DNA of 36,381 nucleotides from Hyphobacterium sp. (GTDB lineage Bacteria > Pseudomonadota > Alphaproteobacteria > Caulobacterales > Maricaulaceae), in NCBI GenBank assembly GCA_021604625.1, contig BQJI01000005.1:1-36381 (forward strand), written 5' to 3'. Positions 23,953 to 30,201 of this stretch are shown one piece after another. Below the pieces are notes generated by a model. That model saw nothing but the letters and a program-made list of their open reading frames with translations, did not search any database and was not told where the DNA came from. A program made the position numbers and the translations under genes. The first letter of the stretch is position 1; the number at the start of each line of letters is the position of its first letter.

Positions 23953-25560
23953 ATGAGCCGACTGACATCCTCAGCCGATACCCATTCCGACGCCTATGCG
24001 GCCAATCGTTCCTCGATGTTGGCACTTGTCGACCAATTGCGCGGCAAAACCGCCGAGGCGGCGGAGGGTGGCTCCGAGCGCTCTCGTGAAAAACACCTGT
24101 CTCGCGGCAAGTTATTGCCCAGGGATCGGGTAGAGCGCCTCCTGGATCCCGGCTCACCCTTTCTGGAAATCGGCGCTCTGGCCGCCAATGGCATGTATGA
24201 GGGAAATGTTCACGGTGCCGGCATGATCGCCGGTATTGGCCGTGTGTCCGGTCGCGAAGTGATGATCGTCTGCAATGATCCGACCATCAAGGGCGGCGCC
24301 TATTATCCAATGACGGTGAAAAAGCATCTCCGAGCGCAAGAAATCGCGATGCAGAACCATCTGCCGTGCGTCTATCTGGTGGATAGCGGCGGCGCGAATT
24401 TACCGCATCAGTCCGACGTTTTTCCCGATCGCGAACATTTCGGGCGCATTTTCTACAATCAGGCGCAAATGTCGGCTGCCGGAATTCCTCAAATTGCTTC
24501 GGTTATGGGAAGCTGCACGGCGGGCGGGGCTTATGTTCCGGCGATGTCCGACGAAACGATCATTGTACGCAAGCAGGGCACGATTTTTCTGGGCGGTCCG
24601 CCGCTGGTGAAGGCGGCGACAGGCGAAGTGATTTCAGCAGAAGATCTGGGCGGAGCTGACGTACATGCGCGCCAATCGGGTGTGGCAGATCACTATGCGA
24701 CCGACGATGAGCATGCGCTTTTTCTCGCCCGCCGAATTGTCGGTACGCTGAACACGACCAAGGCATCTTCACATGATATCGCTGAACCAGAAGACCCTCG
24801 CTACAACCCCGATGAACTGAATGGTGTCGTGCCGACGGATCTGCGTACACCTTATGATGTACGAGAAGTCATTGCGCGGATTGTCGACGGTTCGGAGTTC
24901 GACGAATTCAAGAAGCTTTATGGTGAAACGCTGGTTTGCGGGTTTGCACGGCTGCACGGCATGCCAGTCGGGATTATTGCAAATAATGGCATCCTGTTTT
25001 CAGAGAGCGCCCAGAAAGGTGCGCACTTCATCGAGCTGTGCGCGCAACGGAAAATTCCGCTGATATTCCTGCAGAATATCACCGGTTTCATGGTCGGTTC
25101 GAAATACGAGGCCGGCGGCATCGCCAAGGATGGTGCCAAGCTTGTGACAGCGGTGTCGTGTTTTGCCGGACCGAAAGTCACCATCATCATCGGTGGCTCC
25201 TATGGTGCCGGGAATTACGGCATGTGCGGACGCGCCTATTCACCCCGTTTTTTGTTCATGTGGCCGAATGCCCGCATTTCTGTGATGGGTGGAGAACAGG
25301 CAGCCAGCGTGCTGGCGACCGTGAAACGTGACGGCATGGAGGCGAGGGGTGATAGCTGGTCCGCAGAGGAAGAGGACAGCTTCAAACAACCTATCCGTGA
25401 CCTCTATGAAGCCGAAGGTTCACCCTATTTCTCGACCGCGCGATTGTGGGATGATGGCATTATAGCACCGGCAGATACGCGTCGGGTTCTCGCGCTTTCA
25501 TTGTCCGCCGCCATGAATTCACCTTTCCCCGATACGAAATTTGGCGTCTTCAGGATGTAA
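23953..25560 (+). CDS. mccB: 3-Methylcrotonyl-CoA carboxylase beta subunit (carboxyltransferase)
   Basis: This 535-residue carboxyltransferase converts 3-methylcrotonyl-CoA to 3-methylglutaconyl-CoA with its biotin-carrying partner at 28246. Motifs typical of the MCC branch are [68 protein letters not shown], and [16 protein letters not shown]. The last one has the Ala/Asn-Tyr pattern of MCC rather than the GGAYD of PccB. Length matches human and Pseudomonas beta subunits. It begins a rightward run that includes liuC and the alpha subunit, although unrelated genes and a terminator intervene. Confidence 0.95.
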
Positions 25561-25675: not shown

Positions 25676-25710
25676 GTGGGCGCGTGGGCGAAACTGAGGG
25701 GAACAACGCC

Positions 25711-26103
25711 ATGGAATTTCTTGACACCGCGCGAGGCTGGTTTGACCAGGGCTACGCGTTTTTCGAGCCAGGCCTTTTGATGTATAGGGGTGACGGCGAA
25801 ATGGTAAGCTGGATGCCTTTGCTGATCCAGTTCGGCGTCATTGCCTTAGTGATGGCCATCTTGCTCCGCTCTGCTGGCGCAATCCTGATTTTCACCGTTG
25901 TCGCTGTGATAATTCATGCGATCGTCGATTATGTCATGCCCATGGTGCGGGGTGGTGGCATGGACGGCTTTGATTTCGGTGCCGTCACGGCGAGCTTCAC
26001 CGATATGAATTATTGGCTGTATCTTGGCGCGCTGGCGGTCATGTATTTTGTTGGCATTCTGGTCCTGGGTGGGATCAAGGGAATGCTTTTCCGCGGCGAC
26101 TGA
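25711..26103 (+). CDS. Small three-helix membrane protein, function unknown
   Basis: This 130-residue protein starts with a soluble amphipathic segment (FLDTARGWFDQGYAFFEPG) followed by three membrane helices: MPLLIQFGVIALVMAILL, GAILIFTVVAVIIHAIVDYVM, and YWLYLGALAVMYFVGILVLGG. I do not recognise a family. The ATG at 25711 follows gagggg; the tracked GTG at 25684 would sit close to the predicted transcription start. It is probably a single-gene unit with its own promoter and the strong terminator at 26128. It separates mccB from liuC without an obvious link to leucine degradation. Confidence 0.75.
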   Translation: MEFLDTARGWFDQGYAFFEPGLLMYRGDGEMVSWMPLLIQFGVIALVMAILLRSAGAILIFTVVAVIIHAIVDYVMPMVRGGGMDGFDFGAVTASFTDMNYWLYLGALAVMYFVGILVLGGIKGMLFRGD

Positions 26104-26175: not shown

Positions 26176-26544
26176 ATGATCGAAACCTATGCCATTCACC
26201 CGGTCCTGCCAGTGACGGACATGAAACGTGCTCTCAAATTCTGGCAAAAACTCGGCTTTCGCCTGACTTTCGCCGATGCTTCGCCGACCGATGAAGCAAG
26301 TTATGTGGGGGTCTCGCGCGGCGATCTGATATTTCATCTCCAGACTTTTACCGCGGAGCAGCGTGGCTACACGCAGACCATGGCGTTGCGGATCGAGACC
26401 GATGCTGTTGACGCGCTGTATTCGGAGTGGAGAGATATGGGTTTCATCACGACTCCGTTGGAAGAAAAGCCATGGGGCAATTACGAGTTCGGATTCTATG
26501 ATCCCGACAACACACCCTTTTTCTTCTACCGCGAAGTGGGCTAG
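26176..26544 (+). CDS. VOC family protein, bleomycin-resistance-like
   Basis: This 122-residue single-domain VOC protein has IHPVLPVTDMKRALKFWQKLGF at the start and FGFYDPDNTPFFFYREVG at the end, closest in style to the bleomycin-binding (BRP/Shble) branch. It has no obvious complete metal site: the usual N-terminal His is in YAIHPVLP, but the terminal Glu in FFFYRE is one candidate only. A strong gcggagg Shine-Dalgarno precedes the ATG. It is only 29 bp upstream of liuC and is likely cotranscribed with it. Drug resistance should not be assumed. Confidence 0.83.
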   Translation: MIETYAIHPVLPVTDMKRALKFWQKLGFRLTFADASPTDEASYVGVSRGDLIFHLQTFTAEQRGYTQTMALRIETDAVDALYSEWRDMGFITTPLEEKPWGNYEFGFYDPDNTPFFFYREVG

Positions 26545-26573
26545 ATGAAGAAAACCCCGAAATGGAGCCTCCC

Positions 26574-27371
26574 ATGTCAGACACGCAACCCGTCTTGCTC
26601 GACGTAACCCCCGGCGAACTCGCCGTTGTGACAATAAATCGGCCTGAAAAGAAAAATGCGTTTGATCGGGAGACGATCAATCAATTGGCCGAAACATTAG
26701 ATCTGCTGGCCAAAAACACTGATGAAGTGCGCATTGTGATGTTGCGTGGTGCGGGTGATATTTTCTGCGCAGGCGGCGATCTCAACTGGATGAAAAATGC
26801 GGCCGGATATACGCGCGAGCAAAATATCGAGGATGCCGAGGCTTTGGCGGGCATGCTCTATAAACTCTTCCATTTGCCGCAATTGACGATCGCTCTCGTT
26901 ACCGGTGCTGCGATGGGCGGTGGATCGGGTCTGGTGGCAGCTTGTGATGTCGCGATTGCCGTCAAGAATACGAAGTTCAGTTTTTCCGAAGTGAAGCTGG
27001 GCCTGACGCCTGCCACGATTTCCCCCTTCGTTGTTCGCGCAATCGGGCCAAGATGGGCCAAGGCATTGTTTGCGACGGCAGAGAGTTTTGATGCGCAATT
27101 CGCGCATTTGATCGGCCTTGTTCAATACGTTGTTTCGGATACCGCAGAGCTGGACGAAATGGCAGAATATGTTGCCAAGCTTGGGTTTGGCGCCGCACCT
27201 GGCGCCATCGCGGATGCCAAAAAACTGGTCGATGATGTGTTCGAGCACGACATCAGCCATGGTCTCATGGGTGATCTTGCCAAAAGGATTGCAAACCGCC
27301 GCGCCAGCGAAGAGGGCCAGGAAGGCCTGAGTGCCTTCCTTGAAAAACGCAAGCCAGATTGGGTGGGATAG
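26574..27371 (+). CDS. liuC: Methylglutaconyl-CoA hydratase
   Basis: This 265-residue crotonase fits LiuC, which hydrates 3-methylglutaconyl-CoA to HMG-CoA. It has FCAGGDLNWMK, GAAMGGGSGLVAACD, and FSEVKLGLTPATISPFVVRAIG, the last being typical of LiuC/AtuE-type hydratases. The first catalytic Glu of classical enoyl-CoA hydratases is Gly119 here (GGGSG), while the second, Glu139 in FSEVKLG, is retained; related LiuC-like proteins share this. The ATG at 26574 (MSDTQPV) is preferred because ggag lies 7 nt upstream. Its amber stop is followed in the same frame by the DUF817 coding region. Confidence 0.92.
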   Translation: MSDTQPVLLDVTPGELAVVTINRPEKKNAFDRETINQLAETLDLLAKNTDEVRIVMLRGAGDIFCAGGDLNWMKNAAGYTREQNIEDAEALAGMLYKLFHLPQLTIALVTGAAMGGGSGLVAACDVAIAVKNTKFSFSEVKLGLTPATISPFVVRAIGPRWAKALFATAESFDAQFAHLIGLVQYVVSDTAELDEMAEYVAKLGFGAAPGAIADAKKLVDDVFEHDISHGLMGDLAKRIANRRASEEGQEGLSAFLEKRKPDWVG

Positions 27372-27527
27372 GTCGCGCTGGAAGCGTTACGAAACCCGCG
27401 CACCTGGCTCCATACGCGCCGGGAAGCCTGGCGCACGACATTCGTCCGCGGTTGGCTCACCCGATTCCTATTCGAGTTTGTATCATTCGGGGTCAAACAG
27501 GCTTGGGCTTGCCTGTTTGGCGGCGCG
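27372..27527 (+). other. In-frame N-terminal extension of DUF817 without canonical start
   Basis: From the base after the liuC TAG to the first ATG at 27528, the DUF817 frame is open for 52 codons and encodes LTRFLFEFVSFGVKQAWACLFGG near its end. EFxxFGxKQAWACLFG is conserved at the start of DUF817 proteins, so translation should begin in or before this stretch. None of the 52 codons is ATG, GTG or TTG; a CTG at 27378 (agg six nt upstream) is the nearest possibility. Amber readthrough from liuC or a CTG start are the competing explanations. Confidence 0.6.
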
Positions 27528-28244
27528 ATGGTGGCGCTGCTGCTCGGCACTTTCCTGTTTTATCCCGATGATGCCATTCTGCCGCGTTATGATTTTCTGA
27601 CGCTGTCAGCCATCGCCATTCAGGCCGGCTTTCTGATGTCGCGTTTGGAAACATGGGAGGAGGCGAGGGTCATACTTGTCTTCCACATTGTCGGCACGGT
27701 GATGGAAATCTTCAAAACGTCCGCAGGATCGTGGATCTATCCGGAAGAGGCGTATTTGCGGATTGCCGGAGTGCCGCTGTTTTCCGGTTTCATGTATGCC
27801 GCCGTTGGCAGCTATATCGCGCGGGGCTGGCGCATATTCGAGTTCAAATTTGATCGGTTTCCGCCACTTTGGCTACAGTGTTTTCTGGCGCTCGCCATCT
27901 ACATCAATTTCTTCAGCCATCATTACGTGATGGATATACGCTGGGGTCTCTATCTGGCGTCACTGGCGATCTATGGGCCGTGCATCATCTGGTTCAGGCC
28001 GGACGAGAAGCACCGATTCATGCCGCTGGTTGTCGGTCTGGTTCTGGTGGCGCTGTTTATCTGGTTCGCGGAAAATATCGGAACCTATGCCCGGGCGTGG
28101 TCGTATCCGCATCAGGACGGCGTCAACTGGAGCCCGGTCTCTATCCAAAAGCTCGGATCGTGGTATCTCCTGATGATTATCAGTTTTGTACTTGTCGCAA
28201 TGGTGCATCGCCGGTCCGACAATTCCAAACCCGAGGATGGCTAG
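27528..28244 (+). CDS. DUF817 family membrane protein
   Basis: From the first ATG, 238 residues are encoded with seven or more membrane helices and clear DUF817 landmarks: YDFLTLSAIAIQAGFL, RLETWEEARVILVFHIVGTVMEIFKT, SGFMYAAVGSYIARGWR, and WGLYLASLAIYGPCIIWF. His and Glu residues inside predicted helices suggest a metal or catalytic site, but the family function is not known. The gene is two bases from mccA's start (its stop at 28244, ATG at 28246), so it is translationally close to mccA. The real N-terminus is probably upstream, as described for 27372-27527; this entry marks the conservative start only. Confidence 0.85.
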   Translation: MVALLLGTFLFYPDDAILPRYDFLTLSAIAIQAGFLMSRLETWEEARVILVFHIVGTVMEIFKTSAGSWIYPEEAYLRIAGVPLFSGFMYAAVGSYIARGWRIFEFKFDRFPPLWLQCFLALAIYINFFSHHYVMDIRWGLYLASLAIYGPCIIWFRPDEKHRFMPLVVGLVLVALFIWFAENIGTYARAWSYPHQDGVNWSPVSIQKLGSWYLLMIISFVLVAMVHRRSDNSKPEDG

Positions 28245-28245
28245 C

Positions 28246-30201
28246 ATGTTCAAGACACTCCTGATTGCCAATCGCGGCGAAATTGCCCGGCGCGTCATGC
28301 GGACCGCCCGGCGCATGGGTATACGAACCGTCGCTGTCTATTCCGAAGCCGACGCCGATGCGCCTCACGTGCGCGAAGCGGACGAAGCGGTTCTGCTGGG
28401 ACCGGCTCCGAGTGCAGAAAGCTATCTTCGCGCGGATAAAATTCTCGAGGCGGCGAAGCAGACCGGTGCTGAAGCCATTCACCCCGGCTATGGATTTCTG
28501 TCGGAAAATGCCGAGTTCGCACAGGCTTGCGCCGATGCGGGGATCAAATTTGTTGGCCCGTCTCCTGAATCCATTCGTGCCATGGGGCTTAAAGACCGCG
28601 CCAAAAAACTGATGGAAGAGGCTAATGTGCCGGTTACGCCCGGCTATCACGGCGAGAACCAGGATCCCGACCATCTGAAAAATGCCGCCGATGCTATCGG
28701 TTATCCGGTTCTGATCAAAGCGGTGGCTGGCGGCGGTGGCAAAGGCATGCGCAAGGTTGATGCGTCCGCTGAATTTTTGGACTTGCTTGATAGCTGCAAG
28801 CGGGAGGCGAAATCCTCCTTCGGCAATGACGAGGTTCTGATCGAGAAATTCATCGAAAATCCGCGCCATATTGAAGTGCAGGTTTTTGGAGACAGCCGGG
28901 GCCGGGTGATTCACCTGTTCGAGCGCGATTGTTCCCTGCAACGGCGGCATCAGAAAGTTATCGAGGAAGCGCCGGCCCCGGGCATGACGCCAAATGTGCG
29001 TATGGCCATGTGCTCGGCCGCCGTTCAGGCCGCAAAGGCGGTGAATTATGAGGGTGCCGGGACGATCGAGTTTATCGTCGATGCTTCGGGCCCGCTACGC
29101 GAAGACGGTTTCTTCTTCATGGAAATGAATACCCGCCTTCAGGTGGAGCACCCGGTCACAGAAATGGTGACAGGTCTGGATCTGGTGGAGTTGCAGCTGA
29201 AAGTGGCTGCTGGCGGATCGGTGCCGGAGCAGGACGAAATATCGCTTAACGGTCATGCCATTGAAGCGCGGCTCTACGCCGAAGATCCGACCAACGGTTT
29301 CCTGCCCAGTATCGGGCGGTTGAATGTGCTGGACTTGCCGCGCGGTATTGACGGGGTTCGCGTCGATAGTGGTGTCGAACAAGGCGGTGAAGTCTCTCTC
29401 CATTATGATCCGATGATATCCAAGATTATTACCTTCGGACCGAATCGGGAGGCGGCGATCGAGCGATCGTTGATTGCTCTTGCCGCAACACGGGTTTATC
29501 CGGTCAAGACAAATGGCGGCTTTTTGGGCAATTGTTTGCGCGATGCTGATTTTCAGGCCGCGCGTTTATCAACCGGACTGATTGCCGAAAAGTCAGAGAC
29601 GCTCATTCCTTCGGGCGCGCCAAAACGCGATGCCGCAATCGCCGCAAGAACGCTTTTGGAGCGTGAACAGGGTGCTCAATCCAAAGACCCTTGGGCTATT
29701 CAGGATGGTTTTCGGGCCAATGCGGATTCCAAAATTCTTGTCCGGCTGGAATTCGACGATGAACGCCTCGATGTGGCGCTCGGTGCCGCACCGTCGAAGG
29801 GTTGCACAATCAGCGCTCGGATTGGCGAAGAGACGTTCATACTTGATGGCATGGCCACGTCGGGACGTGTTGTTATGGAGCCCGACGCTGTCATTGTATT
29901 TTCGGATGGCCGGGCCAGCCGGTTCAGTACACCGCGCCCCGACGCTGCTGCAGATGGCGCGGAAGCTGGCGGGCTTGTGAAAGCTCCCATGCCCGGCAAG
30001 GTCTTGTCGCTGAACGTTGCTGAAGGCGATGCCGTCACCAAAGGTCAGAAACTGCTTGTGCTTGAAGCGATGAAAATGGAACATGCCCTGACGGCCCCGC
30101 GCGATGGTGTGATCGCATTTGTCTCCATTTCGACCGGCGATCAGGTCGGTGAGGGCGATGCACTTGTGACCCTGGTCGAGGACGAAGACGTCGCAGCCTA
30201 A
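28246..30201 (+). CDS. mccA: 3-Methylcrotonyl-CoA carboxylase alpha subunit (biotin carboxylase/BCCP)
   Basis: This 651-residue protein has an N-terminal biotin carboxylase (LLIANRGEIARRVMRT; KAVAGGGGKGMRKV; FMEMNTRLQVEHPVTEMVTG) and a C-terminal biotinyl domain with LEAMKMEH, Lys610 being the biotin site. It carries the CO2 used by MccB at 23953. VNYEGAGTIEFIVD and GVRVDSGVEQGGEVSLHYDPMISKI are typical of MCC alpha, distinguishing it from PccA. The ATG at 28246 follows gagg by 9 nt; an ATG at 28237 is an alternative with poor spacing. The tracked start at 28186 lies inside the DUF817 gene. A palindromic repeat follows the stop. Confidence 0.95.
   Translation: MFKTLLIANRGEIARRVMRTARRMGIRTVAVYSEADADAPHVREADEAVLLGPAPSAESYLRADKILEAAKQTGAEAIHPGYGFLSENAEFAQACADAGIKFVGPSPESIRAMGLKDRAKKLMEEANVPVTPGYHGENQDPDHLKNAADAIGYPVLIKAVAGGGGKGMRKVDASAEFLDLLDSCKREAKSSFGNDEVLIEKFIENPRHIEVQVFGDSRGRVIHLFERDCSLQRRHQKVIEEAPAPGMTPNVRMAMCSAAVQAAKAVNYEGAGTIEFIVDASGPLREDGFFFMEMNTRLQVEHPVTEMVTGLDLVELQLKVAAGGSVPEQDEISLNGHAIEARLYAEDPTNGFLPSIGRLNVLDLPRGIDGVRVDSGVEQGGEVSLHYDPMISKIITFGPNREAAIERSLIALAATRVYPVKTNGGFLGNCLRDADFQAARLSTGLIAEKSETLIPSGAPKRDAAIAARTLLEREQGAQSKDPWAIQDGFRANADSKILVRLEFDDERLDVALGAAPSKGCTISARIGEETFILDGMATSGRVVMEPDAVIVFSDGRASRFSTPRPDAAADGAEAGGLVKAPMPGKVLSLNVAEGDAVTKGQKLLVLEAMKMEHALTAPRDGVIAFVSISTGDQVGEGDALVTLVEDEDVAA

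Follow-up and report, generated by a model that had tools for sequence, protein, structure and literature searches.

The DUF817 gene downstream of liuC in the Hyphobacterium-like genome studied here (Maricaulaceae, Caulobacterales; genus-mates include H. indicum 2ED5) is very likely translated from a conserved non-AUG start codon, the CTG at position 27378, probably mainly by ribosomes that have just left liuC. All positions refer to the window, i.e. the whole analysed stretch of 36 381 nt of DNA. Judged by its relatives, this CTG seems to be a genuine, if uncommon, initiation signal; a sequencing error or a defective gene seems not to be the cause. Comparison of related sequences supports where the start lies, that it is conserved and that the codons following it are under purifying selection, as detailed below.

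The junction between liuC and DUF817

The window contains a leucine-degradation (liu) operon in the order liuB, an unmatched ORF, a glyoxalase-fold ORF, liuC, DUF817 and liuD (Table 1). By operon context, the liuC product is the 3-methylglutaconyl-CoA hydratase; the gene has an alternative start at ATG 26574 and ends with the TAG at 27369–27371. Counted from the CTG, DUF817 has 288 codons followed by a TAG at 28242–28244, with the ATG of liuD positioned 1 nt beyond that stop.

A sequence-only reading of this region had stated that DUF817 shares the frame of liuC, with 52 codons open from the liuC TAG to ATG 27528 and with no ATG, GTG or TTG among these codons, all of which we could reproduce; the interval measures 156 nt. 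The codons ATT, ATC and ATA were also absent from the 52 DUF817-frame codons of the interval, in which the only starts of translation table 11 were CTG 27378 and CTG 27513. Taken alone, 52 codons lacking ATG, GTG and TTG could be due to chance. The product belongs to Pfam family PF05675 (347 bits versus a gathering cut-off of 25.9, covering profile positions 1–237 of 237), and the match begins at codon 35 after the TAG, upstream of ATG 27528.

Table 1. Features of the liu operon and of the liuC–DUF817 junction in the window
Feature	Position	Strand	Basis or remark
liuB, carboxyltransferase (MCC beta) subunit	23953..25560	+	Carboxyl_trans, E 8e-157
ORF without Pfam match	25684–26103		liu operon
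Glyoxalase-fold ORF	26176–26544		liu operon
liuC, enoyl-CoA hydratase family	26562..27371	+	Pfam ECH_1, E 3.5e-45; ORF
Probable CTG start codon of DUF817	27378..27380	+	6 nt past liuC stop; CTG column among homologues
DUF817 gene, polytopic membrane protein	27378..28244	+	PF05675, E 7.4e-104; AlphaFold model
ATG, internal Met codon (residue 51 counted from the CTG), not start	27528..27530	+	middle of helix 46–61
liuD, methylcrotonyl-CoA carboxylase alpha subunit	28246..30201	+	biotin carboxylase, biotinyl and BT_MCC_alpha domains

Start codons of DUF817 homologues

DUF817 loci were gathered from whole genomes and from GTDB contigs, and the 49 non-identical loci having liuC directly upstream were kept, with exclusion of one fragmentary row (L169). 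Twenty of these 49 homologues had no ATG, GTG or TTG in the stretch that runs from the liuC stop to residue 13, which is conserved. All 20 carried a CTG, located exactly at the column of 27378 in 18 cases and shifted off that column by alignment gaps in the other two (L015 and L123). None of the 29 homologues having a standard start had CTG at this column, which in 12 other homologues was occupied by ATG (eight), TTG (three) or GTG (one). The TG of the column was thus constant and its first base variable, which is the behaviour expected of a start codon. A plain leucine codon would also be expected to show CTC, CTT or TTG, but no synonymous leucine replacement was seen in any of the 18 aligned start-less homologues; since none of 16 other invariant-leucine columns was wholly CTG, with CTG making up 62.5% of the leucine codons in these genes, the invariant CTG is unlike an ordinary leucine codon. 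For 17 of the 20 start-less homologues, the frame was also free of standard starts upstream, as far as the preceding in-frame stop, whereas L007, L015 and L036 each had one TTG in that stretch.

Seven of the eight Hyphobacterium species had the CTG (TTG stood in this column in the eighth), as did 12 of the 15 Maricaulis-clade members. Such conservation of the arrangement, in Hyphobacterium and in the greater part of the Maricaulis clade, lay beyond the view of the sequence-only reading, which had suggested that homologues be aligned and related genomes inspected; when this was done, the column of 27378 held the standard starts of 12 homologues, a start of homologues at the equivalent of ATG 27528 was not borne out, and the start-less junction with CTG recurred in relatives. 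A pattern of 20 start-less junctions among 49, with CTG in all 20 and in one column in 18, would not easily arise by chance. The tree requires about five changes, and simple significance values overstate the case because the sequences are related.

Coding constraint and predicted structure

Codons 4–52 were found to be under purifying selection, with a pN/pS of 0.25 (pooled over six Hyphobacterium) compared to 0.17 for codons 54–280. The two codons separating the liuC stop from the CTG were not conserved. The confident AlphaFold model of DUF817 (mean pLDDT 92.7, pTM 0.86) had predicted helices at residues 7–22, 26–44 and 46–61, numbered from the CTG. Residues preceding ATG 27528 were invariant in 66 homologues, and this ATG itself is found inside a conserved motif.

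The sole high-probability structure match of the model was the bacterial Insig homologue MvINS (4xu6 and 4xu4; Foldseek probability 1.00, E 5e-3), with a TM-score by target of 0.66–0.68 at 12% identity, and Scap/Insig complexes appeared lower in the match list. DUF817 may hence be an Insig-like membrane protein, as judged from the predicted fold; a search for support of this likeness at the level of sequence found none, and no solved relative by sequence.

Stop-to-start distance and alternative explanations

The CTG follows the liuC stop by 6 nt in the window and by 4–6 nt in 16 of the 20 CTG species. Over the 49 loci, this distance was 4–20 nt for CTG (median 6), 4–10 nt for TTG, 7–16 nt for GTG and 9–174 nt for ATG, where start assignment favoured ATG if there were several candidates, which could lengthen some of the ATG distances. 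Weaker start codons were located closer to the liuC stop (Spearman 0.75 over the 49 loci, kinship ignored); on the tree, about four supported independent contrasts gave a mean of 3.1 in the expected direction with none against, too few for significance. The DUF817 start lies on the same strand as liuC and within a few nucleotides of its stop, as in termination–reinitiation. Since the efficiency of reinitiation drops steeply with distance and short spacing is required (PMC10666635), it is plausible that ribosomes terminating on liuC use the CTG. Such ribosomes would reinitiate at the nearby codon, a proposal confounded by phylogeny, and the CTG would presumably be read as fMet by the initiator tRNA. 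Reinitiation of this kind would hold the output of DUF817 low and tied to that of LiuC. More tentatively, the CTG might be kept by selection as a start serving chiefly ribosomes fresh from liuC, with start strength tuned to the stop-to-start distance and DUF817 made only alongside LiuC, a possibility that we regard as rather doubtful.

It is somewhat unlikely that the CTG is used through ordinary independent initiation instead of by reinitiation after liuC. Pairing with the anti-Shine–Dalgarno sequence could be offered by a purine-rich stretch in the last part of liuC (−5.4 to −9.5 kcal/mol for the native sequences of the CTG genes), and most Caulobacter starts function without a Shine–Dalgarno-type site (PMC4117421), but the spacing of 4–6 nt and the grading of start strength by distance speak against this route. 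The sequence-only reading had listed three ways of making the protein, namely a start at CTG 27378, amber readthrough of the liuC TAG and a late start, of which the comparison supported the first and spoke against the other two. That readthrough should yield a LiuC–DUF817 fusion protein fits with the two genes lying in one frame without any other stop between them in the window and in nine other compared CTG species. Yet six species bearing the CTG (L006, L007, L036, L038, L069 and L123) have liuC ending out of frame with DUF817, the single-contig genome G007 has TAA in place of TAG (locus L003), and the two codons that separate the liuC stop from the CTG vary freely. Frame continuity across the liuC stop is accordingly not conserved among relatives, and because six CTG species change frame and G007 carries TAA, readthrough is excluded as a shared mechanism and is, also for the window, most improbable.

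We judge it very unlikely that the protein is a shortened one made by a late start from ATG 27528 (in relatives, from GTG codon 25). This ATG is the first in-frame ATG, GTG or TTG, and its methionine is conserved in most homologues, but the same methionine is internal in those homologues whose ATG start sits at the column of 27378. A start there would also delete the residues invariant in the 66 homologues, the first two helices and some of the third. Codons 4–52 are under purifying selection, and codon 25 in the window is GTC, not GTG. The assembly of the window is fragmented (271 contigs, 88% complete), so that a sequencing error, or else decay into a pseudogene, might be thought to have erased a normal start. 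The same start-less CTG junction was nonetheless found in seven of the eight species of the genus, among them the independently assembled congeners H. indicum 2ED5 (L031/L002) and G007, and in 13 further genomes, and DUF817 is an intact, full-length gene on which purifying selection acts. A base-call error is very unlikely because independent relatives share the junction, and error or decay taken together is scarcely conceivable. Late-starting homologues and a base-call error had been named beforehand as findings that would overturn the unusual start; both were looked for, and neither holds.

Genomic context and other candidates considered

Outside the lineages with a liu operon, DUF817 was found (L060, L091, L093, L097, L101 and L045) beside unrelated neighbours, including an IclR regulator, folE2, gyrB and a gene of the isocitrate/isopropylmalate dehydrogenase family, and its link to leucine degradation is therefore lineage-specific. 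In Hyphomonas (L060), DUF817 lies between enoyl-CoA hydratase and biotin carboxylase genes. In one family member, the DUF817 copy is interrupted by several stops and seems to be a pseudogene (G013:C17:31638-32400).

A 972-aa open frame at three Maricaulis-like loci suggested a DUF817–LiuD fusion, which was dismissed because DUF817 has its own stop at these loci. In E. coli, the anticodon stem of the initiator tRNA has three G:C pairs, one of which is here replaced by A29:U41 (AGG/CCT) in L205–L208 (G000, G031, G020 and G007), in CTG users and an ATG user alike; an unusual initiator tRNA was hence rejected as the cause of CTG use, the anticodon stem being the same in the ATG-using relative. Genus-wide use of CTG was likewise not upheld when about 320 kb of the H. 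indicum genome G003 was compared with 800 kb of G007: among 184 coding-like ORF pairs, only two, one of them DUF817, had more than 20 aligned codons with clear third-position bias ahead of all standard starts, with the loose coding filter making this a rough control only. The second case, 147 codons long and lacking any Pfam match, is an open frame in G007 (L227:14022-14462); it may have a non-canonical start too, or the frame may simply be the wrong one.

Comparison with known systems

Gene finders that accept only ATG, GTG and TTG would cut DUF817 short, beginning it at ATG 27528 (for relatives, at GTG codon 25) and thereby losing conserved helices. Among the relatives of this gene each of the four NTG codons occurs as a start, at distances from the upstream stop that are graded, and they form a natural series for asking if weaker start codons are tolerated during reinitiation. 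Compared with its own family, PF05675, the protein is a full-length match, with the start codon as the only unusual feature. Like known termination–reinitiation pairs (PMC10666635, PMC2268962), liuC and DUF817 are co-directional, with the start a few nucleotides from the upstream stop; typical coupled pairs, however, share 4 or 1 nt and start with ATG, GTG or TTG, whereas liuC and DUF817 are spaced by +4 to +6 nt and the start is CTG. In E. coli systems CTG initiates weakly (PMC11497404), which counts against the main reading. Start switches to CUG are very rare in prokaryotes, with two found for 61 358 ancestral AUG starts (PMC5622118); such switches do occur, and the CTG of DUF817 has persisted over many speciations. 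In Caulobacter crescentus, of the same order, CTG also serves as a start, in 0.7% of 3235 genes mapped by ribosome profiling (PMC4117421); those starts were mapped experimentally in one strain, whereas that of DUF817 is deduced from conservation across two genera beside an upstream stop. With CTG starts thus established in Caulobacterales, the DUF817 case is a conserved instance of something already known, an unusually well-conserved example and no new mechanism.
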